Below, in pieces: positions 1 through 13,220 of a DNA stretch of 51,435 nucleotides (positions are counted from its first letter, which is position 1; every line of letters starts with the position of its first letter). The position numbers and the translations under genes were made by a program. Where the stretch lies: NCBI GenBank assembly GCA_902515355.1, contig CABXUA010000007.1, positions 1-51,435 on the forward strand, in the 5' to 3' direction. The notes beneath the pieces were generated by a model, which saw only the letters and a list, made by a program, of their open reading frames with translations, was not told the DNA's origin and searched no databases. Origin of the DNA: an uncultured Pelagibacteraceae bacterium. GTDB lineage: Bacteria > Pseudomonadota > Alphaproteobacteria > Pelagibacterales > Pelagibacteraceae.

Positions 1-2
1 AA

Positions 3-608
3 GGTATAGAATGGTATTGCAAAAGATTAAAAAAAAATTCAAAAACAAGAATTTCTTACTTTTATCTCAGTAAAAAATCGTCGTTTATCGATTTAAAAGA
101 GGTTAATGGTTTTCAAGTAAAATCATGGAAATCACTTGAGCATAATTTTTCTTATTTAATAAAAGTTTTTAATCATTACAAAAAACTTTACCCAAAATCT
201 TACAGGAATAAAATTCACGGTGATCTGACACTCGATAATGTTATGTTTTACAAAAACGAGGTTAGCATAATTGATTGGGAGTTTTTTGGTGCTAAAGAAA
301 AATTAAAAGGTTATGATCTAGCTTATTTATTTTTATCTGCTGCGTGTATTCCTTATTTCAAAAAGAAATTTTCTTTAAAAGATGAAAAATTATTTATAAA
401 TTTATGGAAAATTTTAATTAAAAACAAATACAGCAAAAAAATTTTGCAAAATCCATTTAATTATTTCGAAAAAAATATTAAATCTGACTTAGTGTTAAAC
501 AAAGCTATGAAAATATCTAAATCAAAGTTTTTTCCTTTTTTGACAAGAAGACATCACAAAAAAAAAATTTTAGAAATTATAAAATCTATTAATAAATATG
601 AAAAATAA
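3..608 (+). CDS. APH/choline-kinase-like phosphotransferase, 5' truncated
   Basis: The frame is open from base 3, so the protein begins left of the window and only its C-terminal ~201 residues are visible. Bases 216-239 encode HGDLTLDN, the catalytic loop (Brenner-type motif) of the aminoglycoside phosphotransferase/choline kinase fold. The metal-binding segment IIDWEFF follows about 16 residues later. The ATG at 243 lies after the catalytic loop and cannot be the real start. Members of this fold move the ATP gamma-phosphate to small hydroxyl substrates such as sugars, choline or amino acids; the substrate cannot be read here. It overlaps the next glycosyltransferase gene by 11 bases, so the two are probably co-transcribed. 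That suggests a role in making or priming a surface polysaccharide rather than drug resistance, which is inference. Confidence 0.75.
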   Translation, partial: GIEWYCKRLKKNSKTRISYFYLSKKSSFIDLKEVNGFQVKSWKSLEHNFSYLIKVFNHYKKLYPKSYRNKIHGDLTLDNVMFYKNEVSIIDWEFFGAKEKLKGYDLAYLFLSAACIPYFKKKFSLKDEKLFINLWKILIKNKYSKKILQNPFNYFEKNIKSDLVLNKAMKISKSKFFPFLTRRHHKKKILEIIKSINKYEK

Positions 609-1395
609 AGTTTCAATCTTAATGACTGTTTACAATGCTGAAAAATATTTGAAGCAGTCTATTTATAGCGTAATTAATCAAACTTATAAAAACTGGGAAC
701 TTATTATTGTGGATGATTGTTCAACAGATAAATCACTTTCAATTATAAAAAGGTTCAAAAATAAAAAATTTAGAATATTTCCTCTTAAAAAAAAAATAGG
801 CAGAACAAAGGCTTTGAATTTTGGTTTAAAAAAAATTAAAGGTAATTATGTTGCAATATTAGATGCTGATGACATATCAAATAAAAAAAGAATTGAAACT
901 CAAATAAATTTTTTTAAAAAAAATAATAAAGATTTTTTAGTAGGGTCTTGGTACAAAATAATCGATAAACATGGTAAATTTGTTAAATTAATTAAAACAA
1001 ATACTGACATAAATAAAATATATGAAAAAATGACGGTAAATAATATTTTTTGTCATAGTTCAATAATGTTCAGAAAGAAACTATTATTTAAAATAGGTGG
1101 GTATCCAAAGGAATTAACCTACAGTCAGGACTATGGTTTTATTTTAAAAAGTATGAAAATTAGAGTTCCAAAAATAATTCCCAAATTATTAACTATTAGT
1201 AGAAGACATGATGAGTCTATGACTTATTATAACAAATTAAAAAAATATATAAATTTAGATAAGATTATAGTTTTAATTTATATATTTAAAAATTTTAAAT
1301 TTAATTTATATTCTGGAATGCTTTGGAATTTAAGATTTTTTAAATCTTTATTTGAATTTTTTATGATAAAACTATTCACAATTTTCAAAGTTTAG
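598..1395 (+). CDS. family 2 glycosyltransferase
   Basis: This 265-residue protein is a typical GT-A inverting glycosyltransferase. The N-terminal strand VSILMTVYNAEKYL leads to V-D39-D40 (nucleotide binding), and L-D89-A-D91-D92 is the metal-binding DxD motif. A later QDYGF element sits where the catalytic-base region (ED/QD) of GT2 enzymes lies. The C-terminus is basic and hydrophobic and could rest on the inner face of the membrane. It would transfer a sugar from a nucleotide-sugar donor to a growing glycan; donor and acceptor are unknown. The start overlaps the upstream phosphotransferase gene by 11 bases, and the next methyltransferase gene begins 18 bases downstream, so the three look like a surface-polysaccharide operon that continues to the left. 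Confidence 0.88.
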   Translation: MKNKVSILMTVYNAEKYLKQSIYSVINQTYKNWELIIVDDCSTDKSLSIIKRFKNKKFRIFPLKKKIGRTKALNFGLKKIKGNYVAILDADDISNKKRIETQINFFKKNNKDFLVGSWYKIIDKHGKFVKLIKTNTDINKIYEKMTVNNIFCHSSIMFRKKLLFKIGGYPKELTYSQDYGFILKSMKIRVPKIIPKLLTISRRHDESMTYYNKLKKYINLDKIIVLIYIFKNFKFNLYSGMLWNLRFFKSLFEFFMIKLFTIFKV

Positions 1396-1413
1396 TGCAA
1401 AACTTATTTACTA

Positions 1414-2334
1414 ATGAAAAAATTCTTAAAACTTATTTATAACCTAGTTAAATATCCAGCCAGTTTAATTTTCTTCAAAACCCCTTTGAAGAAAATACTT
1501 ATTTCTTATATGAAAAATTACCGATCTATAAAAAATCGTGGTTTGCTATTCAAATTTATAAGTAAGTTATTTTGGGAAGAATATTATAACAAATTAGATC
1601 TTAAAGAGAAAGACAGGATCAGAGATCTTACTCTTTCATTTGGTGAAGGAAAATTATGGGCTAGTCAATATTACAAAGAGAAACTTCGAACTTTTGATGA
1701 TTTGAAAAAAATAAAAATAGGAAGTATGACTAAATTCGATTGTAACATAATCTACACTAAAATTTTTAATTATATAGAAGATTTATTAAAAACATTTGAC
1801 CATAAGAATATTTATCTTCTTCAAATTGGATCTTCCTCTGGTAGAGATTTGAACTTCTTTAGAAACTATTTTCCAAAAATAAATTTCATATCTACCGATA
1901 TTAACGACGAGATTTTAAATTTTCAAAAAAAAAACTATAATTATCCAAATTTTAAATTTTTTAAATTGTACGCAAAAAATATTAAAGAATGCATCAAACA
2001 CTTTGATATATATGAAAAAAAAAAAATTATCTTTTCTATTGGCTCAGCTCAATACTTTTCACCTGTAGAGTTAGATATCTTTTTTAATGCAATTTCAAAA
2101 CTAAATGATGTTGAGTTTTTTTTAGATGAGCCGATTAGTATTAATTTTCTCAACCAAAATAAACATTCCTCCCATAGGCATGACATAAGTTACAATCATA
2201 AATATGATGAGTATGCTGAAAAAAATGAGTTAATTATTGTCAAAAAGAAAATTACATTTCCTTTTGATAAAAAAAATTTAGATCATTTAGATACTTGTAA
2301 TTACTTCTTACAGTGTAGATCAAATAATTCTTAG
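1414..2334 (+). CDS. putative class I SAM-dependent methyltransferase
   Basis: The protein has 306 residues. A Rossmann-type nucleotide-binding start, YLLQIGSSSGRDLNFF, is followed about 16 residues later by STDIND, where an acidic residue would hold the SAM ribose. This is the layout of motifs I and II of class I methyltransferases. The ~130 residues before it are basic and match nothing I recognise; they may recognise the substrate or contact the membrane. It follows the glycosyltransferase by 18 bases on the same strand. It converges on the minus-strand VTC gene with a 5-base gap and no visible terminator. The substrate is unknown; methylation of a glycan or lipid is plausible from context. 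The fold is a fairly safe call, the function is not. Confidence 0.62.
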   Translation: MKKFLKLIYNLVKYPASLIFFKTPLKKILISYMKNYRSIKNRGLLFKFISKLFWEEYYNKLDLKEKDRIRDLTLSFGEGKLWASQYYKEKLRTFDDLKKIKIGSMTKFDCNIIYTKIFNYIEDLLKTFDHKNIYLLQIGSSSGRDLNFFRNYFPKINFISTDINDEILNFQKKNYNYPNFKFFKLYAKNIKECIKHFDIYEKKKIIFSIGSAQYFSPVELDIFFNAISKLNDVEFFLDEPISINFLNQNKHSSHRHDISYNHKYDEYAEKNELIIVKKKITFPFDKKNLDHLDTCNYFLQCRSNNS

Positions 2335-2339
2335 ATTAA

Positions 2340-2966
2340 TTATATATAAATTCTTTGCTGATGAGGTTTATTATAAAGCAAATTTATTCCTTCACAATAT
2401 TTTGTGTATCTTACTCTTTGCATTGGAATGAAATCAGAAAATAAATTTAAATTTGAAATTATATCACTTGACGATTTTAGTTCTAAAACTAGTGTTTCAT
2501 TATCATTAAAAATTTTATTAAAAGTAACACCTTCATATTTGATATCGTAATCTATTGTAAATCTGCAGTTTTTTAAAATTAAATACTCTCTAGTGTAAGA
2601 TACTTTAATAACTGGATCACAGTTTCCATATTGTTGAACAAAAATACCATTTTTAAAATAGTAATTATTTAGATCACTGGATATTTTTTTATTAACTTTA
2701 TATTTTCCTTCAACACTAGTTATTTTAGTTTCTAAATTTTTTGACGGATTTTTTTCTTCAGGATAATGTCTTATTCTCACTTTCTTTCTTGGCACACAAC
2801 CTTCTTCTGAGTCTCTATACATTTCAAAAAATTTATTATCAAAGTAGATACTGCTAATTTTTCTTTTGGGGTAAAGTTCTTTTACATTAATAAATTGTAA
2901 ATGACTTCTTAGTTTATTAAGATCGCTAATGTGTAATTTTATTTTTTCTTCTAATCTAAAGCTCAT
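2340..2966 (-). CDS. VTC-domain protein (polyphosphate polymerase-like)
   Basis: The 208-residue protein is a compact VTC domain, the triphosphate-tunnel fold that in yeast Vtc4 makes polyphosphate from ATP. Charged pairs line up along the chain as expected for a tunnel: R4/E6/K8 near the start, S39-I-Y-F-D43, R64-I-R66, E79-T-K81, R126/Y128, E162-L-K164, and R184/R186 with R-Y-T-K189 near the end. Its start overlaps the end of the CotH-type gene by 4 bases (ATGA), so the two are translationally coupled. Yeast Vtc4 adds SPX and membrane parts; here only the catalytic-type domain is present, and the DUF4956 membrane protein nearby may supply the membrane part. Bacterial VTC-domain proteins are annotated as polyphosphate polymerases mostly by homology, so the product made here is not established. 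Confidence 0.82.
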   Translation of the reverse strand: MSFRLEEKIKLHISDLNKLRSHLQFINVKELYPKRKISSIYFDNKFFEMYRDSEEGCVPRKKVRIRHYPEEKNPSKNLETKITSVEGKYKVNKKISSDLNNYYFKNGIFVQQYGNCDPVIKVSYTREYLILKNCRFTIDYDIKYEGVTFNKIFNDNETLVLELKSSSDIISNLNLFSDFIPMQRVRYTKYCEGINLLYNKPHQQRIYI

Positions 2967-5293
2967 TCTACGAATTTAATTTCAGATTTATTATCAAACT
3001 CAGTTTTCTTATAATTACTTTCATCACAAGTTACGTTTTTTATTTGTAATAAACCACCTGAAAACTCTTGTTTTTTGTTAAAAGCTTGAAAGCAGACCTT
3101 TGTATCACTAATCACACTATCAGCTATTTTAGCTATAGAATAATCTTTTGAAACAATTGCATAATTTGAGTTTTTAATTATCGTATTTTCTATTAAAATA
3201 TTGCTCTTCTCTCCTACTGAAATGGCTTTATCTCCACAATTTTCTAAAAATGATCTATTAACTTTATAGGCGCCATAAGAAAAGTCCATACAGTCATTTT
3301 TGCTATTATTTACCTCAATATTTTCAAAAGTTAACTTTGAAAAGTCACTATCCATTGCATCAAAAGCCGAGTTTAAGATTGAGAGTTTACTAACCGAGCC
3401 AGAAGAACGTACAAAGTTGACAGCATCTTCACATTTAGATCCATCTGAAGAAAATTCAATTTTGTTTAACTCAATATCATAAAAATTCACACATCCTGTT
3501 AAATTTCTTTCATCAAATGAGTAGATATTTGAAATTAATTTAGAGCTATCATTTAAGTAAAATTTCCATTCACTGAGCAAACCATTTTTGAAAACAATGC
3601 GGTCTTTGTTTGAATTTCTTTTGATGTTTATTACTCTATTTTCTCTGTCTATATTTAAAGATGGTTTTCCTATTATCAATATATCAGTATTATCTATTCT
3701 GTTAATTTCTATTTTGTCATTAATATTTTTTTGATAGTCCCAACCATTTAATGGGTCATCTGTTTTTAATTTACCCAAATAAATAAGATCATTCTGATTT
3801 TTGTCTTTGAGTTTTTGAGATATAAGTTGGAGCTTTTCATCTTCATTTAATTGAATATTTTCGCAGGCTTGATTATAAATATTGCAGGAAATAAATTCTT
3901 TATCTGAATTTGTATTGTATATAATTCTCCTTTCTTTTTTAATATCATATGTATCATTTGGTTTTACAAAAGCTTTATTTTCTAAGTCAGCTTTAATTTG
4001 ATAAATTAAATTGTCATTAAATTTACTTAAAATATTTAAGCTTTTTTTTATTTTAGCAAAGGCTTTTTGAGTTTCATCCTGACTTATTTGATATCCATAT
4101 TTATTTAATTTTTTGTTAAACTGTATTAAATCTATTTTACTAAGTAATTTTTCTGCATCTTTTGCGCCGTATCTTACTGAAGGAATTACGTGTTCTTGTT
4201 CTCCATCAGTCCAGTGATTAAGATTTTTATTTAAAAAAGAAAAATGTCCATCGTAGTAAATAGGATGATATTTTTGACTTAGAGCATCAAAATAAAATCT
4301 TCTGTCATTTTTAGGCATTATATGATCATTGTTCATTGAAATAGCTAATGCGTCAAAAATATGTAATCTTTCAAATAAATCTTTATTTAAAAAAACTTTT
4401 TCAATAAAATAATAATCAGTATTATCGTTAGGTAACTTTTCAGTATAATGTATTTGGCCTAAGTGATTGAGCAAAGAAATACTTTGACTAGATATCTTAA
4501 ACGCAGAATCATTTTTTTTTGACCAATTAGAATTTACTATTCTTGCTTTTGATAAATTTTGTTTATGTCTATTATCTAAGAACGCAAATCTTTCATCTCC
4601 CTCAATTATCGGAGACTCCCTCCTTAATTTTGACTCCAAAAACTCTTTAACAATTTTTTCTTGAAAAATAAATTTTTTTGAATTTTTGCCATGTATCACA
4701 TTTACGTATGTTGTTTTAGGAGACAAAAAACCTAGTTCAGAATACAAAGTACTAGCAAAAATTTCGTTGTCGTATTGCCTTGCCTGAGGTAAAAATAGAA
4801 TAAATTTTGTTATTCCGAAAATATGTCCATCACTTAAATTAATATTAAGACTAGGCAATATCGAAGCATCTCTTTGATCATGAATTAAATCTCCATGAAC
4901 TCTTACCCTCGCGTCTAAAAAGCAAAATTGTTTACCATCTTTAAACATAATAATTTTTGCTTTTGATCTTGGTCTTGAGTCTGGGTCTGAGAAGTTTCTC
5001 CAATAATTATATTTTTTTTTATTTTCCTCACTTTTAACAAGACTATTAAGCAAAGACTTTCTCCAGGCTCTAGTTGACTCAAACTCTATTCCTAAATTAA
5101 ATTTTTTAAAATTTTTGGGGTGCAAATACAACGAATTAGAATAACTTAAATTTTTACAATTCTTCTTAGTTAAAAATCCTTGTATGTTATAATCAATTTG
5201 AGGATTCTTATCTAGCCTAGATGCGTATATGCCAAGAGAAATGATTGCAAAAAACAGCAAAGCAAATAGGGTTAAATTTTTTAAAATCTTCAT
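2963..5293 (-). CDS. CotH-kinase-like protein fused to a beta-helix domain
   Basis: From the ATG at 5293 the product has 776 residues. It begins with a basic-hydrophobic-ASR segment of about 25 residues, a signal peptide or anchor. The longer reading from 5365 would run into the divergent FkbM gene and bury this signal, so 5293 was chosen. Residues ~125-370 resemble the CotH kinase family: RVHGDL, ITKFILFLPQARQYDNEIFA, an N-N-D-H stretch near 320, and IYYDGHFSFLN near 345, where CotH proteins carry the catalytic acidic residues. From ~545 to the end come short strand-turn repeats with DCMDFSYG and GDKAISVGEKS...VSKDYS, a right-handed parallel beta-helix. CotH of Bacillus phosphorylates spore-coat proteins; Pelagibacterales make no spores, so the target here is something else, probably outside the cytoplasm. 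Confidence 0.72.
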   Translation of the reverse strand: MKILKNLTLFALLFFAIISLGIYASRLDKNPQIDYNIQGFLTKKNCKNLSYSNSLYLHPKNFKKFNLGIEFESTRAWRKSLLNSLVKSEENKKKYNYWRNFSDPDSRPRSKAKIIMFKDGKQFCFLDARVRVHGDLIHDQRDASILPSLNINLSDGHIFGITKFILFLPQARQYDNEIFASTLYSELGFLSPKTTYVNVIHGKNSKKFIFQEKIVKEFLESKLRRESPIIEGDERFAFLDNRHKQNLSKARIVNSNWSKKNDSAFKISSQSISLLNHLGQIHYTEKLPNDNTDYYFIEKVFLNKDLFERLHIFDALAISMNNDHIMPKNDRRFYFDALSQKYHPIYYDGHFSFLNKNLNHWTDGEQEHVIPSVRYGAKDAEKLLSKIDLIQFNKKLNKYGYQISQDETQKAFAKIKKSLNILSKFNDNLIYQIKADLENKAFVKPNDTYDIKKERRIIYNTNSDKEFISCNIYNQACENIQLNEDEKLQLISQKLKDKNQNDLIYLGKLKTDDPLNGWDYQKNINDKIEINRIDNTDILIIGKPSLNIDRENRVINIKRNSNKDRIVFKNGLLSEWKFYLNDSSKLISNIYSFDERNLTGCVNFYDIELNKIEFSSDGSKCEDAVNFVRSSGSVSKLSILNSAFDAMDSDFSKLTFENIEVNNSKNDCMDFSYGAYKVNRSFLENCGDKAISVGEKSNILIENTIIKNSNYAIVSKDYSIAKIADSVISDTKVCFQAFNKKQEFSGGLLQIKNVTCDESNYKKTEFDNKSEIKFVE

Positions 5294-5347
5294 CTTCAAT
5301 AAAAATATATTTAATTTTGATTTTATGCAATATACTATTAGAAAACT

Positions 5348-6220
5348 ATGAGTTTTAAGGTACAAATTAAAAAAAAACTTAGAAAAAATTTATTTTTTTT
5401 CAATATTATTTTGTTTTTATATAAGTTAGTTAATTTTCCTAAAAATCTATTTAAGAAATTTAAAAGTTTATCCATCAAAAAAAAGGCGTTTCAGGAATAT
5501 GAGAGAAATTCAGGAATTTTAAAAATAAATTATGCTGGGTATGATTTAAAATTTAAAGCAATTTCTGCAAAAAATTATTACCACTTAATTACTGGATCTC
5601 AAAATGAGCATTTGTTTTTTAAAAAACTTTTTAATAAAATTTCCGATGGAATGGTAGTATATGATATTGGAGGGCACGTTGGAATGTACACCCTTCCATT
5701 TGCTAAAATAGTTGGAAAAAATGGAAAAGTATTTGTGTTTGAACCTGATAAAAACGGATATGAAGCGATTAAAGTAAATTTAGATTTGAATAATATTGAA
5801 AACGTAAAACTATTTGACTGTGCTATGAGTGACAAGTCGGATTTAGCTGAATTTTTTTTGAGACCCGATAAAGATACACATAGTTTATTCGAAGAAACTC
5901 TTGCACCCTCAAAAACAGGAGCTCAAAAAAAAATTAATGTACAGTCTTACACGATTGATGATTTAATTTTACGAAAATTGGCTCCTCCGCCTAACTTTAT
6001 AAAAATTGATACAGAGGGAGCTGAATTAAAAATATTAAATGGAATAAAAAAAAATTATTCCTCTTTAAATTACATATTTATTGAAATACATCCTAATGCT
6101 TTAAAGTTGGAAAATATTTTAAATCCTGAGGAAAAGGTTGAAGAAAAATTAAAAGAAATCGGTTTTAATAAATTTGAGTATTACGACAATATACACTTAC
6201 TTGCTATGAAGGGAGATTAA
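5348..6220 (+). CDS. FkbM family methyltransferase
   Basis: The protein has 290 residues. SAM motif I is V-V-Y-D106-I-G-G-H-V-G, the acidic loop is FVFEPD, and the C-terminal half has FIKIDTEGAELKILNG and FIEIHP, all hallmarks of FkbM-type O-methyltransferases. The first ~45 residues are very basic with a hydrophobic stretch, perhaps for membrane contact. These enzymes often methylate sugars in surface glycans or secondary metabolites; the substrate here is unknown. The gene diverges from the CotH-type gene with a 54-base gap and converges on DUF4956 with a 9-base gap. It therefore sits on the opposite strand inside an otherwise minus-strand set, which looks like a later insertion. Confidence 0.88.
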   Translation: MSFKVQIKKKLRKNLFFFNIILFLYKLVNFPKNLFKKFKSLSIKKKAFQEYERNSGILKINYAGYDLKFKAISAKNYYHLITGSQNEHLFFKKLFNKISDGMVVYDIGGHVGMYTLPFAKIVGKNGKVFVFEPDKNGYEAIKVNLDLNNIENVKLFDCAMSDKSDLAEFFLRPDKDTHSLFEETLAPSKTGAQKKINVQSYTIDDLILRKLAPPPNFIKIDTEGAELKILNGIKKNYSSLNYIFIEIHPNALKLENILNPEEKVEEKLKEIGFNKFEYYDNIHLLAMKGD

Positions 6221-6229
6221 CCGCACTAT

Positions 6230-6877
6230 TTAAGATTGAATATCAGCTCTTATACTTATTATGTCTTTATTTTTTTCAATCGAATTCTTAAAATTTAGTA
6301 AATCATCTCTACTTTGAAAAACTAGTCTATAAACATAAATCTTTTTTTCAATATCAAAAAATAAATTAATAATATTTTTTTTGTTTTCTATTTCTTTAAT
6401 TTCATTTTTGGCATTGATCTCCATAGTAAAATTTAAATTTCCATCCCCAAATGAATATTGAAAAATATTAATTTTAAAATTTTTCAGAATTCGGTCTGCA
6501 AAATTTATTCCAAATATAACTACAATCACTAGCAAACCTAGAAGGACAGCTAAGAAAAGTGATACGCTTGAAACTATTCCAAGAGTTAACAAAGCAAAAA
6601 ACATAACTAATTCAAAAGGACTTTTAACTGGATTCCTAAACCTAACAATTGAGAGGGCGCCAATCATTCCAAGAGATAAAGCTATGTCATCTTTAATAAC
6701 CGAAGTTATAATTAAGGCAATATTTGGTAACAATAAATATGATCCTAGGTGATGATAAGTGTTTGCCCATCTTTGACCAGAAATTACTAATGCTTGACGG
6801 ATAGCAAATCCAGTAATTGTTAAAAATGAAACTTTAACTACATGCGGATGAAGCAATAAAGACAAAATGTAATCCAT
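6230..6877 (-). CDS. DUF4956 membrane protein
   Basis: The 215-residue protein has an N-terminal membrane half with about four hydrophobic segments (roughly 10-30, 45-60, 90-108, 108-126) and a soluble C-terminal half of ~85 residues. The conserved DUF4956 signature is clear at residues 67-90 (SLGMIGALSIVRFRNPVK...), with R79 and R81 at a membrane edge. No biochemical function is known to me for the family. DUF4956 genes are often found beside VTC-domain and CotH genes in other bacteria, and the same three families occur together here. A reasonable but unproven idea is that it forms the membrane channel or scaffold through which a VTC-made polymer passes, as Vtc1 does in yeast. Confidence 0.83.
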   Translation of the reverse strand: MDYILSLLLHPHVVKVSFLTITGFAIRQALVISGQRWANTYHHLGSYLLLPNIALIITSVIKDDIALSLGMIGALSIVRFRNPVKSPFELVMFFALLTLGIVSSVSLFLAVLLGLLVIVVIFGINFADRILKNFKINIFQYSFGDGNLNFTMEINAKNEIKEIENKKNIINLFFDIEKKIYVYRLVFQSRDDLLNFKNSIEKNKDIISIRADIQS

Positions 6878-7002
6878 ATTAAACTAAATATATTAAACAA
6901 TTTTAATAAGCAATAAATAAATACTTGCTAAGTACAATAGAATTATATTCTTTTTTTTATTTTGTTATGATTAAGTATTTTTAAAATAGTTAAATATTTT
7001 TT

Positions 7003-7077
7003 GGGCATGTAGTTCAGTGGTAGAACGCTACGTTGACATCGTAGAGGTCGCTAGTTCGATCCTAGCCATGCCCACCA
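7003..7077 (+). tRNA. tRNA-Val (GAC)
   Basis: A complete cloverleaf is visible. The acceptor stem GGGCATG pairs with CATGCCC (7067-7073), the D stem is GTTC/GAAC, the anticodon stem CTACG/CGTAG encloses loop TTGACAT (anticodon GAC), and the T arm is GCTAG-TTCGATC-CTAGC. Discriminator A and an encoded CCA end at 7077. It reads GUC and GUU valine codons. It lies between the DUF4956 gene and a small methyltransferase-like gene at the edge of the variable region. I saw no repeat of its 3' end nearby that would mark an attachment site. Confidence 0.97.
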
Positions 7078-7099
7078 AAAATTGATAACATTTGTTTAA

Positions 7100-7804
7100 A
7101 TGATAGCTTATATAGATTTGTTTAAAAAATTTTTTCCAAAAAAAATTTATTTTTTTTTCAAGAAAATTTACCATATTTTAAGATTCTATAATATTTTCAA
7201 TCCTAATTATAAATCATCAGATAAAATTAAATTTGGAGATGATAATACTGGAAAATATCTTAAAGATAAAATACTTCACTCTAAAATATTCTTAGAGTAT
7301 GGTTCTGGCAACACTACAATTCTTGCATCTAAAAATAATATTAAAAATTTTTCGGTAGAAAGTGACAGAAATTTTTATTTCTATCTTAAAAAAATGGGAT
7401 TAAGAAATTTATATTTCTATAGTTTAGGATACGTATCTTTTTATTCCTATCCCTTATTTGAAAGTTCAATTTTTAAAAAATATTATTCTAATAAAGCCAA
7501 ATTGTATGCTAGTGAAATATTAAATAAGCTAGAAAATGAATCAAATCATCCAGATTTAATTTTAATAGACGGAAGATATAGAGTTTTATGTATGCTTTTT
7601 GTTTATAATTTTCTTAAATCAAAGAATTTATTTAAGACTTGTGTAATTTTAGATGATTTTAAAGATAGAGAATATTACAATGTTATTAAGAAATTTTTTA
7701 ATGTTACCTTGATTGGTAGACTTGGTATTTGTTATATTAAGGAAACGAATAAAGATGAAAAAATTGATATTCTAATAGAAAAATATTCTTATGACGAAAG
7801 ATAA
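7100..7804 (+). CDS. putative Rossmann-fold methyltransferase-like protein
   Basis: The 234-residue protein has FLEYGSGNTTILAS near residue 70, which looks like SAM-binding motif I. FSVESD follows about 17 residues on and LILIDGRYRV near residue 155, a pattern seen in small class I methyltransferases and in uncharacterised surface-locus proteins. The ~60 residues before this are basic and hydrophobic and may anchor the protein at the membrane. The gene starts 22 bases after tRNA-Val and overlaps the following nucleotidyltransferase gene by 14 bases, so the pair is co-expressed. I do not recognise a named family or a substrate. Confidence 0.5.
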   Translation: MIAYIDLFKKFFPKKIYFFFKKIYHILRFYNIFNPNYKSSDKIKFGDDNTGKYLKDKILHSKIFLEYGSGNTTILASKNNIKNFSVESDRNFYFYLKKMGLRNLYFYSLGYVSFYSYPLFESSIFKKYYSNKAKLYASEILNKLENESNHPDLILIDGRYRVLCMLFVYNFLKSKNLFKTCVILDDFKDREYYNVIKKFFNVTLIGRLGICYIKETNKDEKIDILIEKYSYDER

Positions 7805-8201
7805 AAAAAATAATGACGTAGCTTCAGATTCATATAAGTGGGATAATAAAAAACCTACCGCTCAGATGTTAGGCAGATGGCAGCCTTTTCATGAGGGGCA
7901 TTATGCATTGTTTGAAGAAATAATAAAAAAAACTGGACAAGTTTGCATTCAGATAAGAGACGTGCAAGGTGTTGAAGATAATCCTTTTAATTTTGAAACA
8001 ATTAAAAAAGATATAGAGGAAAAATTAACTCCCAAATACAAGAATAGATTTAAAATTATCTTAGTTCCTAACATAACAAATATTTGTTATGGGAGAGGAG
8101 TAGGTTATAAAATAGAGGAAATAGTTCTTTCAGAGGAAATTCAAAAAATTTCAGCTACAAAAATTAGAGCAAAAATGAGAAAAGAAGGCAAATTAACCTA
8201 A
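7791..8201 (+). CDS. small nucleotidyltransferase (cytidylyl/adenylyltransferase-like)
   Basis: The product has 136 residues. G28-R-W-Q-P-F-H34-E-G-H37 is the HxGH-type nucleotide-binding motif, and I120-S-A-T-K-I-R126 is the second conserved motif of the nucleotidylyltransferase superfamily (NMN adenylyltransferase, pantetheine-phosphate adenylyltransferase and CTP:glycerol-3-phosphate cytidylyltransferase folds). Such enzymes join NMP from CTP or ATP to a phosphorylated small molecule and release pyrophosphate. The ~25-residue leader before the motif is unusual for the smallest members and recalls proteins annotated as adenylyl/cytidylyltransferases near capsule or sulfate-activation genes. 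It overlaps the preceding gene by 14 bases and ends 47 bases before the 5S rRNA. Activation of a surface precursor is plausible; the substrate is unknown. Confidence 0.72.
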   Translation: MTKDKKNNDVASDSYKWDNKKPTAQMLGRWQPFHEGHYALFEEIIKKTGQVCIQIRDVQGVEDNPFNFETIKKDIEEKLTPKYKNRFKIILVPNITNICYGRGVGYKIEEIVLSEEIQKISATKIRAKMRKEGKLT

Positions 8202-8214
8202 TCAATTTTTTTAG

Positions 8215-8243
8215 TTTACAGGAGTTAATAAAAACACTATAAA
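8215..8243 (+). promoter_or_regulatory. sigma70-type promoter of 5S rRNA
   Basis: TTTACA (8215-8220) and TATAAA (8238-8243) are separated by exactly 17 bases. The expected transcription start, 6-7 bases after the -10 box, falls at 8249-8250, the first base of the 5S acceptor-like stem. The fit of spacing and start makes this one of the most convincing promoters in the window. It implies that 5S is transcribed on its own rather than from a 16S-23S operon. Confidence 0.7.
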
Positions 8244-8248
8244 ACTTT

Positions 8249-8364
8249 GCCTGGTGATTATTGCGAAGGGGTTACACCCGATCCCATTCCGAACTCGGAA
8301 GTTAAGTCCTTCAGCGCCGATGGTACTTTGCCTTAAGGTACGGGAGAGTAGGACGTTGCCAGGC
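8249..8364 (+). rRNA. rrf: 5S ribosomal RNA
   Basis: The sequence contains the standard 5S core: loop A/B elements ACCCGATCCCATTCCGAACTC, a GTTAAG segment, CGCCGATGGTACT, and GAGAGTAGGACG near the 3' end. The terminal stem pairs GCCTGG (8249-8254) with CCAGGC (8359-8364). The mature ends may differ by one or two bases. No 16S or 23S gene is in the window, so this copy stands alone, as in known Pelagibacter genomes. It is followed after only 9 bases by rpmJ, with no terminator between. Confidence 0.96.
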
Positions 8365-8373
8365 TTTAAAATT

Positions 8374-8499
8374 ATGAAAATAGCTAGCTCACTAAAATCA
8401 TTGAAAAAAAGAGACCTGAACTCTAAGCTTGTCAAACGCAGAGGCAAGCTTTACGTTATCAATAAAAAAAATCCTAAATTTAAAGCTCGTCAAGGTTAA
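8374..8499 (+). CDS. rpmJ: 50S ribosomal protein L36 (bL36)
   Basis: The 41-residue product starts [14 protein letters not shown] and ends [13 protein letters not shown], a standard alphaproteobacterial L36. It has none of the Cys/His residues that bind zinc in the C+ form of L36, so it belongs to the zinc-free type. The ATG at 8374 was chosen because any longer reading would run back into the 5S gene. It starts 9 bases after the 5S end and probably shares its transcript, which would need processing to free the rRNA. L36 is assembled late into the large subunit near the 23S domain that contacts the elongation factors. Confidence 0.93.
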
Positions 8500-8513
8500 A
8501 AAATAGGAGGAAG

Positions 8514-9710
8514 ATGAAAATACTTTGTGTTTTGTACGATGATCCAAAAAAAGGTATGCCAAAAAACTACCCAATAGGATCACTTCCTAAGCTAGGAAAA
8601 TATCCAGACGGTATGACTTTGCCTAATCCAAAATCCATAGACTTTAAACCAGGCGAGTTACTTGGATGTGTTTCAGGAGAATTAGGTTTGAGAAAATTTT
8701 TAGAGTCTAACGGCCATAAGTTAGTAGTTACTTCAGATAAAGACTCTGAGGGATGCAAAGCCGATAAAGAGTTAATTGATGCAGATATAGTTATATCTCA
8801 GCCATTCTGGCCTTATTATTTAACGAGAAAAAAGATTGAATCAGCTAAAAATTTAAAAATGGCAATTACCGCTGGAATTGGTTCAGACCACGTAGATTTA
8901 CAAGCAGCTATGGACAATAAAGTAGACGTTGTAGAGGTTACTTATTGTAATTCAAGATCAGTAGCTGAACATATTGTAATGATGATACTATCTTTAGTAA
9001 GGGACTATCACAACCAACACTCTATAGTAAAAGCTGGTGGTTGGAACATAGCTGATGGAGTTCAAAGATCATATGATGTGGAAGGTATGCATGTTGGCAC
9101 AGTTGCTGCAGGGCGTATAGGTTTAGACGCTTTAAGAAAAATGAAACCCTTTGATGTGCATTTACATTATTTTGATAGGCACAAGTTACCAGACTCAGTA
9201 GAAAAAGAATTAAATCTCACTTTCCATGAATCAGTCGAATCTTTGGTAAAGGTTTGCGACGTAGTTACAATTAATTGCCCTCTCCATCCAGAAACTGAAA
9301 ATTTATTTGATGATAAGCTGATAAGCAAAATGAAAAAAGGTGCCTACATTGTTAATACTGCTAGAGGAAAAATTTGCAATAGAGAGGCAATTGCAAAAGC
9401 ACTAGAATCTGGACAACTCAGCGGATACGCTGGAGATGTTTGGTTTCCTCAACCTGCACCCAATGATCATATTTGGAGAACAATGCCGAACCATGGAATG
9501 ACTGCACATACTTCAGGAACTTCTCTATCTGCTCAAGCAAGGTATGCTGCTGGAGTCAGAGAAATATTAGAATGCTTTTTTGATAAAAAACCTATAAGAG
9601 AACCTTATCTGATTGTCAAAAATGGACAACTTGCTGGTATGGGAGCTCACTCTTATAGCAAAGGTAGCGCGACTGGCGGATCCGAAGAAGCAGCTAAATA
9701 CAAAAAATAA
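8514..9710 (+). CDS. fdh: NAD-dependent formate dehydrogenase
   Basis: The 398-residue enzyme oxidises formate to CO2 with NAD+, without metal, in the cytoplasm. It belongs to the D-2-hydroxyacid dehydrogenase superfamily, and the formate-specific features are visible: long N-terminal segment with PNPKSIDF, YCNS (substrate-binding Asn), a Rossmann loop VGTVAAGRIG, FDRHKLP (acidic NAD selectivity residue), NTARGKI (catalytic Arg), WFPQPAP (Gln) and TAHTSG (catalytic His). The start has a strong ribosome site, AGGAGG, 15 bases after rpmJ. The transhydrogenase genes follow 7 bases after its stop. It completes oxidation of one-carbon units, a known energy source in SAR11. NADH made here could feed the proton-driven transhydrogenase next door to give NADPH (inference). 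Confidence 0.94.
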   Translation: MKILCVLYDDPKKGMPKNYPIGSLPKLGKYPDGMTLPNPKSIDFKPGELLGCVSGELGLRKFLESNGHKLVVTSDKDSEGCKADKELIDADIVISQPFWPYYLTRKKIESAKNLKMAITAGIGSDHVDLQAAMDNKVDVVEVTYCNSRSVAEHIVMMILSLVRDYHNQHSIVKAGGWNIADGVQRSYDVEGMHVGTVAAGRIGLDALRKMKPFDVHLHYFDRHKLPDSVEKELNLTFHESVESLVKVCDVVTINCPLHPETENLFDDKLISKMKKGAYIVNTARGKICNREAIAKALESGQLSGYAGDVWFPQPAPNDHIWRTMPNHGMTAHTSGTSLSAQARYAAGVREILECFFDKKPIREPYLIVKNGQLAGMGAHSYSKGSATGGSEEAAKYKK

Positions 9711-9717
9711 ACCAATT

Positions 9718-10809
9718 ATGATAGTTGGTTCAATTAAAGAAGACGCTACATTAGATAAAAGAATATCTATTACTCCAGAAACTTCAAAAAATTTAAACGA
9801 CCTAGGATTGAAAATTTATCTTGAAAGCAAATACGCAGAACATCTTGGTATTTCTGATGAAAAATATTCTAATGTAAAATTTTTTGATGACCCAAAAGAG
9901 CTAACTAAAAATATAGATTTGTTAGCTCAAGTAAACTGTCCTTCTACTGAAACAATTAAAAATTTAAAAGAAAACTCTATAATTTTGGGAATACTTAACC
10001 CTAATAAAAATAAGAAAATTTTAAACAATTTCTTAAAACAAAAAATTAATCCATTTTCCCTTGAGTTATTACCTCGAATTACCAGAGCTCAGTCAATGGA
10101 TGTTTTATCATCACAAGCTAATCTTGCTGGCTATCGAGCTGTAATTGAGTCAATTTATGAATTTGAAAAAGCCATACCGATGATGATGACTGCAGCTGGT
10201 ACTGTTCCTGCAGCAAAAGTTCTAGTAATTGGTGCTGGAGTAGCTGGTTTACAAGCAATTGCTACAGCAAAAAGATTAGGTGCTATAGTATCTGCTACAG
10301 ATGTTAGAGCAGCTTCAAAAGAACAAGTAGAAAGCTTGGGAGGAAAATTTTTAGTAGTTGAAGGTTCAGAAAATTTAGAAACAAAAGATGGGTATGCAAA
10401 AGAAACAGGAGAAGAATTTAAAAAAAAACAATCAGAAATGCTCGAAAAAGCTGTAGCTAATACAGACATAATCATTTGTACTGCGCTTATTCCTGGAAAA
10501 TCAGCGCCAAGAATTATTAATGAAAAAATGATTAGTGGTATGAAAAAAGGATCAGTTATTTTTGATTTAGCCTCAATCCAAGGAGGGAACTCTGCTTACT
10601 CAGAAATAGATAAAATAGTAATTAAAAATGGAATAAAGATAATTGGAATTGGAAATGTTATGAACAAATTACCTGTTACTGCGTCAAGTTTATACGCCAA
10701 AAATATATTTAGTTTTATTAGAAATCTATTTAGTAAAGAAAAAAAACAATTTGTTATAAACATGGAAGACGAAATTATTAAAAATACTTTAATTAAAGAA
10801 GGAGACTAA
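9718..10809 (+). CDS. pntAA: NAD(P) transhydrogenase subunit alpha part 1 (domain I)
   Basis: This is the soluble NAD(H)-binding subunit of proton-translocating transhydrogenase, 363 residues from the ATG at 9718. Landmarks include RRxTITPET-like DKRISITPETSKNL near the start, LLPRITRAQSMDVLSSQANLAGY (R-Q-D of the hydride-transfer site), the Rossmann loop VIGAGVAGLQA, and VSATDVRAA with the NAD-selective acidic residue. An earlier in-frame ATG would overlap fdh by about 100 bases, and alpha subunits start close to MIVG, so 9718 is preferred. The split into AA, AB and B matches the three-subunit form of Rhodospirillum rubrum rather than the two-subunit E. coli enzyme. The enzyme drives NADPH formation with the proton gradient. 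Confidence 0.93.
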   Translation: MIVGSIKEDATLDKRISITPETSKNLNDLGLKIYLESKYAEHLGISDEKYSNVKFFDDPKELTKNIDLLAQVNCPSTETIKNLKENSIILGILNPNKNKKILNNFLKQKINPFSLELLPRITRAQSMDVLSSQANLAGYRAVIESIYEFEKAIPMMMTAAGTVPAAKVLVIGAGVAGLQAIATAKRLGAIVSATDVRAASKEQVESLGGKFLVVEGSENLETKDGYAKETGEEFKKKQSEMLEKAVANTDIIICTALIPGKSAPRIINEKMISGMKKGSVIFDLASIQGGNSAYSEIDKIVIKNGIKIIGIGNVMNKLPVTASSLYAKNIFSFIRNLFSKEKKQFVINMEDEIIKNTLIKEGD

Positions 10810-10810
10810 T

Positions 10811-11122
10811 ATGGAAATTGATCCATTTATATTCAGATTTAGCATATTTATTTTAGCAATATTTGTAGGTTACTACGTTGTTTGGAGTGTTACGCCATCT
10901 CTACATACCCCTTTAATGTCAGTAACAAATGCTATTTCTTCTGTAATTATTGTTGGAGCTATAATCGCTGCATTAGCGAGCTCATCAAATAATATTTTTG
11001 AGATATCAAATATTTTTGGATTTTTGGCTATAGTTTTAGCTTCTGTAAATATTTTTGGTGGTTTTTTGGTTACTCAAAGAATGCTTCAGATGTATAAAAA
11101 AAAGAAGAAAATTAAAAAATGA
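10811..11122 (+). CDS. pntAB: NAD(P) transhydrogenase subunit alpha part 2 (membrane)
   Basis: The 103-residue membrane protein contains about three hydrophobic segments and the conserved VVWSVTPSLHTPLMSVTNAISSVIIVGAI core, in which the T-N-A-I-S-S stretch lines the proton path of the transhydrogenase membrane domain. It starts one base after the pntAA stop and overlaps pntB by 4 bases (ATGA), so subunit synthesis is coupled. It forms domain II together with the N-terminal helices of PntB. The C-terminus is a short lysine-rich tail, consistent with a cytoplasmic end. Confidence 0.94.
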   Translation: MEIDPFIFRFSIFILAIFVGYYVVWSVTPSLHTPLMSVTNAISSVIIVGAIIAALASSSNNIFEISNIFGFLAIVLASVNIFGGFLVTQRMLQMYKKKKKIKK

Positions 11123-12516
11123 TTTCAGCTAATTTATCAGCAGTCTTTTACTTAATTTCAGGAATACTTTTTATTTTGGCATTAAGAGGATTATCTTCTC
11201 CAGAAACTTCAAGACAAGGAAATTTATTTGGTATCTTAGGAATGATAATTGCTATTACTGTCACCTTTTTAACAGTTGGCAACTTCTCAATTGCTATGAA
11301 TTACGTCTTATTATTTTTATTAATAGGAGGTGCTATAGGAGCCTTTATTGCATTTAAAATACCAATGACAGCAATGCCTGAACTAGTAGCTGGTTTTCAT
11401 AGCTTAGTAGGTCTTGCTGCAGTTTTTGTCGCTATATCTGCTTTTTTAAATCCTCAAGCTTTTAACCTCGGTATTCCAGGAGACATTAAACTTGCAAGTT
11501 TGATAGAAATGTCAATTGGAGCAGCAGTTGGAGCTATAACTTTTTCTGGATCCATTATTGCTTTTTTAAAACTCAGGGGGATAATGTCTGGCTCACCTAT
11601 AACTTTTATAGGTCAACACCTTTTTAATTTAATTCTTGGAATATCAATTGCTGTATTAATATATTTTTTATGCTCCACTCAGTCAGAAATTTTCTTTTGG
11701 GGAATGATTCTAATTTCTTTCTTGATTGGTATTTTATTAATTATTCCAATTGGTGGAGCTGATATGCCGGTAGTAATTTCAATGCTTAACTCTTATTCAG
11801 GTTGGGCAGCCGCTGGTATTGGTTTCACTTTAGAAAATACAGCTTTAATTATAACAGGGGCTTTAGTTGGTTCCTCAGGAGCTATATTGTCTTACATAAT
11901 GTGTAAAGGAATGAATAGATCTTTTTTCAGCGTAATTTTAGGTGGGTTTGGTGGAGACTCTAAAACTAGCAAAGAAGATAAAAAAGACCAAAAACCCGTT
12001 AAAAGTGGAAATGCTGAAGATGCTGCTTTTTTACTAAAAAATGCATCCTCGGTTATTATTGTACCTGGATACGGAATGGCAGTTGCGCAAGCACAACATG
12101 CTTTAAGAGAAATGGTAGATGTTTTAAAAAAAAATGACACAAAAGTTTCTTATGCTGTTCATCCTGTAGCTGGAAGAATGCCTGGTCACATGAATGTTTT
12201 GTTAGCAGAGGCAAACGTACCTTACGATGAAGTTTTTGAATTAGACGAAATTAACAACGACTTTGCAAATACAGATGTAGCATTTGTTATAGGAGCAAAC
12301 GATGTAACAAATCCTGTAGCTAAAACTGATCCTCAAAGCCCTATTTATGGAATGCCAGTTTTAGATGTAGAGAAGTGCAAGTCAGTCCTATTTGTTAAAA
12401 GAAGTTTATCACCAGGTTATGCTGGAGTTGATAATGAGCTTTTTTATAGAGAAAATACTATGATGCTATTTGCTGATGCTAAAAAAATGACCGAGGATAT
12501 TGTAAAAAATATTTAA
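11119..12516 (+). CDS. pntB: NAD(P) transhydrogenase subunit beta
   Basis: The 465-residue protein joins about eight or nine N-terminal membrane helices to a cytoplasmic NADP(H)-binding domain. The membrane part has IPMTAMPELVAGFHSLVGLAA, with the conserved His of the proton channel, and GGADMPVVISMLNSYSGWAAA. The soluble part begins after ~285 with VIIVPGYGMAVAQAQH, an NADP-binding loop. HPVAGRMPGHMNVLLAEA, GANDVTNPVAKTDPQSPIYGMP and VKRSLSPGYAGVDN follow, all family signatures. It overlaps pntAB by 4 bases and is followed after 2 bases by the transaldolase-like gene, so the four genes with fdh look like one transcript. Its length is normal for the family. Confidence 0.95.
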   Translation: MISANLSAVFYLISGILFILALRGLSSPETSRQGNLFGILGMIIAITVTFLTVGNFSIAMNYVLLFLLIGGAIGAFIAFKIPMTAMPELVAGFHSLVGLAAVFVAISAFLNPQAFNLGIPGDIKLASLIEMSIGAAVGAITFSGSIIAFLKLRGIMSGSPITFIGQHLFNLILGISIAVLIYFLCSTQSEIFFWGMILISFLIGILLIIPIGGADMPVVISMLNSYSGWAAAGIGFTLENTALIITGALVGSSGAILSYIMCKGMNRSFFSVILGGFGGDSKTSKEDKKDQKPVKSGNAEDAAFLLKNASSVIIVPGYGMAVAQAQHALREMVDVLKKNDTKVSYAVHPVAGRMPGHMNVLLAEANVPYDEVFELDEINNDFANTDVAFVIGANDVTNPVAKTDPQSPIYGMPVLDVEKCKSVLFVKRSLSPGYAGVDNELFYRENTMMLFADAKKMTEDIVKNI

Positions 12517-12518
12517 AA

Positions 12519-13220
12519 ATGCCTAAAACAAAAATATTTTGTGATATAGCTGACTACAAAACAATAAAAGAGTTTAACAAAAAATCAATAGTTAATGGTT
12601 TTACCACCAACCCCAGTTTAATGAGAAAAGCTGGAGCAAAAAGTTATGAAAAATACTCAAAGCTTCTTTTAAAAATATGTAATAAGAAACCTATCTCATT
12701 AGAGGTTTTTGCTGATAATTTTCAAGAAATGGAAAAACAAGCTTATAAAATAAATTCTTGGGGGAAAAATGTTTATGTCAAAATTCCTGTGATCAATAGT
12801 AAAGGTATTTTTTCCGGACCTTTGATAAAAAAATTAAACAAAAAAAAAATTAAACTTAATATCACAGCTGTTTATACCGTTGCTCAAGTTAAAAAAATTA
12901 AAAGATGTTTAAATTATAAATCAAAATCTATTATTTCAATCTTTTCTGGAAGAATGGCCGATGCAGGAAAAGATCCTGTTCCAATAATAAAAAAAGCTAT
13001 TCAGATGACAAAAAAAAATAGAAATATACAAATACTTTGGGCAAGTACTAGAGAGCCTTATAACTATATTCAAGCTAAGCAATTTGGTTGTCAAATTATT
13101 ACTATGCCACCTAGTATTATCAAAAAAGTATCAAAATTTGGAAAGTCTCTAAAAAGACTTACTAAAGAAACTGTGGTAGCTTTCTTGAAAGATAGTAGAA
13201 AATCAAGATTTAAAATATAA
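12519..13220 (+). CDS. tal: transaldolase / fructose-6-phosphate aldolase-like
   Basis: The 233-residue protein belongs to the short transaldolase group. CDIADYKTI near the start, GFTTNPSLM (substrate phosphate/hydroxyl contact), VYVKIPV (Schiff-base Lys), LNITAVYTVAQV, FSGRMADAG and LWASTREPYN are recognisable. Compared with MipB/TalC enzymes, the chain is lysine-rich and ends with a basic tail. It would exchange three-carbon units between fructose-6-phosphate and erythrose-4-phosphate in the non-oxidative pentose phosphate pathway. Transketolase lies 7 kb away in the same window. It begins 2 bases after pntB and ends the operon, 26 bases before the convergent ydcF-like gene. Transaldolase versus aldolase activity cannot be told from the sequence alone. 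Confidence 0.85.
   Translation: MPKTKIFCDIADYKTIKEFNKKSIVNGFTTNPSLMRKAGAKSYEKYSKLLLKICNKKPISLEVFADNFQEMEKQAYKINSWGKNVYVKIPVINSKGIFSGPLIKKLNKKKIKLNITAVYTVAQVKKIKRCLNYKSKSIISIFSGRMADAGKDPVPIIKKAIQMTKKNRNIQILWASTREPYNYIQAKQFGCQIITMPPSIIKKVSKFGKSLKRLTKETVVAFLKDSRKSRFKI

Follow-up and report, generated by a model that had tools for sequence, protein, structure and literature searches.

A conserved VTC, CotH-fold and DUF4956 gene cassette in Pelagibacterales as a candidate envelope system for a phosphate polymer

Introduction

Do three neighbouring genes of a SAR11 bacterium form one system, and could that system make a phosphate polymer at the cell envelope? The question is raised by a locus in the window, as we call the whole 51,435-nucleotide stretch of DNA that was analysed, which comes from an uncultured Pelagibacteraceae bacterium. 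A sequence-only reading had proposed that a VTC-domain protein makes an anionic polymer, that a DUF4956 membrane protein passes or anchors it, and that an exported CotH-kinase fusion modifies or displays a surface target. The gene set itself is already known from Gram-positive Pel operons, which are adjoined by genes for CotH, a polyphosphate polymerase, DUF4956 and DUF4832 (Whitfield et al., 2020, PMC7112168). A 2025 study gives the triad of S. intermedius as SIR_1592-1594 and reports that no such synteny was detected outside Pel loci (PMC12345266).

Results

The three genes form a conserved cassette in Pelagibacterales

Three minus-strand genes were found where the sequence-only reading had placed them. 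The VTC-domain (triphosphate-tunnel) gene (2340..2966, minus strand) encodes a soluble protein of 208 aa and was identified by PF09359 (E = 5e-19). As claimed before, it shares 4 bases (ATGA, 2963-2966) with the next gene (2963..5293, minus strand), whose 776-aa product joins a CotH fold, assigned by a family profile and a predicted model, to a right-handed beta-helix. The third gene (6230..6877, minus strand) encodes the 215-aa DUF4956 membrane protein (PF16316, E = 5.6e-8). Missing from the earlier layout was an FkbM-family methyltransferase gene (5348..6220, plus strand; TIGR01444, 1.7e-31), which lies antisense between the DUF4956 and CotH genes; hence the triad of the window is not one unbroken run. 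Among 36 complete loci only the window has this insertion, the other 35 having no FkbM gene there, and the FkbM gene is probably not part of the cassette. The CotH gene likely starts at ATG 5293, which leaves it divergent from the FkbM gene with a gap of 54 bases; a TTG start at 5365 is less likely and would overlap the FkbM start. The CotH product carries an N-terminal hydrophobic segment, and glycosyltransferase genes surround the cassette in the window and in several relatives' loci, in agreement with the proposed export; the context is surface-glycan-like. A PHO-box-like pattern in the window was rejected as a candidate, with 5 matches against 2.9 expected and as many reached in 19 of 100 shuffles.

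Of 147 Pelagibacterales genomes, 15 had the VTC gene, 16 the CotH protein and 17 DUF4956; all 15 VTC genomes also had the other two. Chance was excluded as the source of the VTC/DUF4956 co-occurrence (Fisher p ~1e-18). VTC was found in 23 of 101 genomes of the window's genus; carriers of the cassette were about 10% of the genomes in the order sample and 23% of those in the genus sample. We mapped 42 VTC loci from fetched surrounding DNA, 36 of them free of contig-end cuts; the VTC, CotH-fold and DUF4956 genes were together in all 36. The gene order was DUF4956–CotH–VTC in 32 of these loci, and VTC preceded CotH in the other 4. One additional gene lay between DUF4956 and CotH in five loci: the FkbM gene in the window and, in the four others, a gene encoding 340-350 aa with no convincing Pfam match. 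One genome (G044) held three divergent copies of the cassette. The sites varied, with glycan genes or housekeeping genes as neighbours (named by sequence inspection); in loci L034 and L048, for instance, the cassette lies between ilvC and leuA. Being found at differing sites, it behaves like an accessory module that is gained and lost. The three genes are a real, conserved cassette.

The cassette occurs in genomes of other phyla in which PelG was not found

Full-length relatives of the CotH/beta-helix protein were found in 4 more genomes among 299 Pseudomonadota genomes, with a contiguous triad in 4 of 4. A DUF4956 scan over ~85,000 species gave at least 575 relatives, of which the best 80 were examined. 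The VTC gene was in the same stretch in 80 of these best 80, mostly adjacent and often overlapping, and a CotH-fold gene was also present in 53; the best 80 are those most similar to triad-type queries, so that the 80/80 is valid for that subset of DUF4956. Their phyla included Planctomycetota, Actinomycetota, Bacillota, Chloroflexota, Spirochaetota and others. The co-occurrence of the families suggested by the sequence-only reading was thus borne out in both surveys. Some alphaproteobacteria had a DUF4956-like/VTC pair without CotH (loci L110-L112). No relative was found in viral contigs scanned with the window VTC protein, a single-protein query that reaches close relatives only.

PelG was missing from all 147 Pelagibacterales genomes (completeness of the window's own genome, 75%) and from 48 of 49 other genomes with fetched loci, many of them incomplete; the cut-off was reached in 1. 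The lack of PelG in these genomes indicated that the arrangement is not Pel-specific.

The VTC protein keeps the tunnel residues of Vtc4

PF09359 matched the window VTC protein with 69 bits against a cut-off of 23 and spanned the whole domain (residues 8-198). The protein consists of the VTC domain alone, with no SPX and no transmembrane part. A phmmer search of the PDB with this protein alone gave no match; the VTC family profile was required, and its best matches were Vtc4 chains (1.3e-14). NCBIfam gave only a sub-threshold match to cyaB (E 0.09).

Of 17 Vtc4 tunnel positions compared, 15 were invariant in 41 of 41 SAR11 rows (R196, K200, R264, R266, Y268, E279, K281, K294, Y359, R361, R373, D377, E426, K428 and K458), and these were also kept in at least 77 of 80 rows from other phyla. 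The charged tunnel residues are therefore in place, as the sequence-only reading had stated. The window protein has Thr in place of S457 of Vtc4, and conservation is lacking at K300. A yeast VTC carrying R264A/R266A/E426N is catalytically impaired (PMC9911596); all 41 SAR11 rows share these three residues with Vtc4, as do at least 79 of the 80 rows of other phyla. The conservation suggests that the bacterial VTC of the cassette would make polyphosphate from ATP. No demonstrated activity of a bacterial VTC was found in the literature searched.

The SAR11 VTC proteins fell into four groups; VTCs from other phyla were the sister of one of them, a group of five (support 0.87). A single VTC clade for all beta-helix-type loci was not recovered; the best clade omits 14 of 54, so the monophyly of the beta-helix type is not established.

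DUF4956 is a candidate membrane partner of VTC

PF16316 matched the window DUF4956 with 33.1 bits against a cut-off of 30.6. In the predicted model (pLDDT 84.6), about five membrane helices precede a C-terminal ferredoxin-like domain (residues 145-215), which resembles SbtB/ACT regulatory (ACT/PII-like) domains with a modest Z of ~8; structure matches covered this ACT-like tail only, with none over the transmembrane part. The membrane domain of SIR_1592 is described as MgtC-type (PMC12345266). In 124 sequences R79, F80, R81 and G100 were invariant, and position 85 was always K or R. The channel of yeast VTC contains basic residues, K24 and R31 of Vtc1 among them (PMC9911596), to which the RFR and K/R charges of DUF4956 appear comparable in kind. 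Such fixed positive charges would suit a polymer-binding partner of a polyanion polymerase, and on the strength of this conservation DUF4956 might serve as a channel. Together with the VTC gene in the best 80 of at least 575 DUF4956 loci, they strengthen the earlier suggestion that DUF4956 is the membrane partner of VTC.

The exported protein is probably not a standard kinase

The window CotH/beta-helix protein alone had no Pfam match; among 32 family members, PF08757 matched 7 and PF13229 matched 5. The family profile matched B. cereus CotH (5jd9) with E = 5.9e-14. In the predicted model (pLDDT 82, pTM 0.84), residues 63-427 (4013..5107, minus strand) aligned with 5jd9 (Z 19.3, 301 residues aligned, rmsd 3.8), and residues 523-776 (2966..3727, minus strand) aligned with AlgE4 as a right-handed beta-helix (Z 21.0, 229 residues aligned, rmsd 2.8). 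The latter domain also resembles the folds of AlgG, polygalacturonase and pectate lyase.

B. subtilis CotH requires D228 (D228Q is inactive) and D251 (PMC7821199). As landmarks for these two positions, we used the two Asp residues of 5jd9 with the same 23-residue spacing. The metal-binding Asp (D251) corresponds to D348 in the window protein and was Asp in 32 of 36 beta-helix-type members; E212 is kept as well. At the D228 position the window protein has H324. His stands there in 32 of the 36 beta-helix-fused members, namely 28 of 32 from SAR11 and all 4 from other Pseudomonadota, and not one has Asp. A loop residue inserted next to this position makes the column uncertain by one, but no conserved Asp lies there; the Asp that adjoins the His in the window protein is not conserved. 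CotH proteins that lack the beta-helix, by comparison, had the catalytic Asp in 46 of 48 rows, which include triad members from other phyla and a second triad in one genome (G277).

Columns with at least 90% conservation numbered 18 of 200 in the beta-helix and 5 of 290 in the CotH part. Most invariant residues sit in the beta-helix as an Asp/Lys cluster with roughly one-coil spacing (D623, D645, D648, D650, D667, D670, D688, K689, S692, E695, K716, D717 and K740), which may be like that of metal-dependent enzymes acting on acidic polysaccharides. With the catalytic Asp lost and the invariant residues mostly in the beta-helix, members of the beta-helix-fused subfamily are unlikely to be standard CotH Ser/Thr kinases. 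The proposal that the CotH part acts as a kinase on a surface target is thus weakened, because the Asp essential in CotH is His here.

Carriers of the cassette tend to lack ppk1

The cassette had been put forward as a second polyphosphate route besides ppk, which did not fit the genomes: neither ppk1 nor PPK2 was found in the window's own genome (75% complete), and PPK2 was found in 0 of 147 Pelagibacterales genomes. In the order sample, ppk1 was present in 3 of 15 VTC carriers vs 69 of 132 others (p 0.027); in the genus sample, in 6 of 23 carriers vs 43 of 78 others (p 0.018); both p values ignore kinship and completeness. Functional replacement of ppk1 by the VTC cassette is a lead.

A large, labile phosphate buffer outside the cell or in the periplasm is described for SAR11 (PMC4525184; PMC7250820), which is reported to be without polyphosphate storage (PMC4525184), and periplasmic polyphosphate synthesis is said not to occur in bacteria (PMC7250820). 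A tie between the cassette and the buffer is suggestive but unproven, and the cassette is too rare to be a general explanation of it.

Discussion

We tentatively read the locus as a three-gene envelope cassette in which VTC and DUF4956 make and move a phosphate polymer and the exported protein handles this polymer or a surface glycan, with a probability of about 0.42. On the inner side of the membrane, VTC would polymerise ATP phosphate to polyphosphate or a close phosphate polyanion. DUF4956 would be its dedicated membrane partner, with RFR-K charges that bind the polymer and pass or anchor it and an ACT/PII-like domain that possibly senses a metabolite. The exported CotH-fold/beta-helix protein would receive or use the polymer, or act with it on a surface glycan. 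The identity of the polymer, its translocation and the role of the exported protein are what we infer here. The tunnel residues, the triad co-occurrence, the DUF4956 charges and the scarcity of ppk1/PPK2 count for this reading. TTM enzymes with other activities share the tunnel residues, which counts against it. The S. intermedius study bears on both sides: deletion of the DUF4956 or CotH homologue alters the amount of Pel and reduces aggregation, whereas the mutant lacking the VTC homologue SIR_1593 still aggregates, with no change named for it in the available part (PMC12345266). The reported lack of polyphosphate storage in SAR11 and of periplasmic polyphosphate in bacteria counts against it too.

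The cassette could instead be an accessory module of a surface polysaccharide, in which the exported protein binds, cuts, epimerises or anchors an exported glycan, no polyphosphate is exported, and VTC/DUF4956 either have a regulatory part or provide or detect a phosphorylated cofactor. The beta-helix is the best conserved part, with its Asp/Lys cluster and its likeness to AlgE4, AlgG, polygalacturonase and pectate lyase; glycosyltransferases lie around the window locus and several relatives, and the Gram-positive homologues affect Pel (PMC12345266). However, such a module does not need full conservation of the VTC polymerase residues, PelG is absent, and some loci, such as L034 and L048 between ilvC and leuA, have housekeeping neighbours; we therefore hold this reading to be somewhat unlikely. 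It is improbable that VTC is a TTM hydrolase or nucleotide-signal enzyme (e.g. a tripolyphosphatase) in a regulatory cassette. The diversity of TTM activities and the ACT-like tail of DUF4956, which suggests ligand sensing, speak for it, but the profile similarity is specifically to Vtc4, cyaB matched only below threshold, and linkage to a membrane protein better suits a polymerase-translocase.

A counterpart of the yeast VTC polymerase-translocase, in which VTC and DUF4956 push polyphosphate over the inner membrane and the His-type CotH/beta-helix protein uses or holds it, is likewise unlikely; if true, some SAR11 bacteria and many other phyla would have ATP-independent phosphate chemistry, or would store phosphate, beyond the cytoplasm. 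We regard it as quite improbable that the extracytoplasmic CotH-fold domain takes its phosphoryl groups from exported polyphosphate, or that this polymer supplies the labile phosphate pool in the SAR11 periplasm. Such a role would account for the link of a polyphosphate-type polymerase to a kinase fold in an extracellular setting poor in ATP, and the SAR11 buffer is large (PMC4525184; PMC7250820); yet His replaces the catalytic Asp in the beta-helix subfamily, and because carriers are few (~10% to 23%) and Prochlorococcus also has the buffer, the cassette cannot be its general basis.

For the preferred reading of VTC and DUF4956 as makers and movers of a phosphate polymer, the residue patterns strengthen the earlier polymer idea on the VTC/DUF4956 side. 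What is new is that the cassette occurs in genomes without PelG, across a range that runs from Pelagibacterales to Planctomycetota, Actinomycetota and Bacillota; this makes it general instead of Pel-specific and gives DUF4956 a clear partner. Since a gene set known from few biofilm loci is far wider, it may be an overlooked route by which bacteria make and handle a phosphate polymer at their surface. Polyphosphate export in bacteria becomes testable, and an envelope phosphate polymer, if true, would bear on the phosphorus management of SAR11 in phosphate-poor oceans.

Three known systems come closest to the cassette. The Gram-positive Pel triad consists of the same three families in contiguous genes, its CotH-fold protein being exported and its DUF4956-like membrane protein carrying an ACT domain; in the SAR11 exported protein a beta-helix takes the place of FN3 and a His that of the catalytic Asp, and neither DUF4832 beside the cassette nor PelG was identified. 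Like the yeast VTC complex (Vtc4 with a Vtc1/Vtc3 channel), the cassette links a polymerase domain that has kept the key tunnel positions, with Thr for S457, to a membrane protein with fixed basic residues, whereas the SAR11 VTC has neither SPX nor fused transmembrane helices and its membrane partner would be DUF4956. The Bacillus spore-coat kinase CotH (5jd9/5jda) has the same predicted fold, metal Asp (D348) and Glu (E212); the SAR11 protein differs from it by the His at the Asp228 position and the fused beta-helix, in a bacterium without sporulation.

Variation in cassette content and copy number

An FkbM methyltransferase gene (window 5348-6220) lies between the DUF4956 and CotH genes, antisense to the cassette, an insertion found only in the window among the 36 complete Pelagibacterales loci (1/36). 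A different gene, encoding 340-350 aa, separates DUF4956 from CotH in four loci of a single sub-lineage (L038, 6822-7844; L044, 10546-11595; L052, 6513-7541; L054, 4645-5667); a Pfam search with it gave no convincing match. G+C content was 22-27% over the glycan/cassette region (window 1-8000) and 31-36% in the flanking core genes (window 8001-13000), and in this low G+C the former resembles an accessory region.

The whole cassette can occur repeatedly: one genome of ~1.2 Mb (G044) carries three very divergent copies (L035, L036 and L037). Genome G277 contains two types, the beta-helix type and a second one (L113) consisting of VTC, DUF4956 and a long exported CotH protein with the canonical catalytic Asp. 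Partial sets were also found. For a lone CotH/beta-helix gene (L043, 796-3114), no VTC or DUF4956 neighbours were seen within the stretch read; the same genome has a full cassette too. At three alphaproteobacterial loci outside the Pelagibacterales set (L110-L112), VTC is paired, without CotH, with a DUF4956-like gene whose match to that family is weak.

In C. perfringens, ~225-aa 'tubulin/FtsZ GTPase' genes adjoin VTC and CotH (CP4_0460-0465; PMC2879425); their products are probably DUF4956 proteins.
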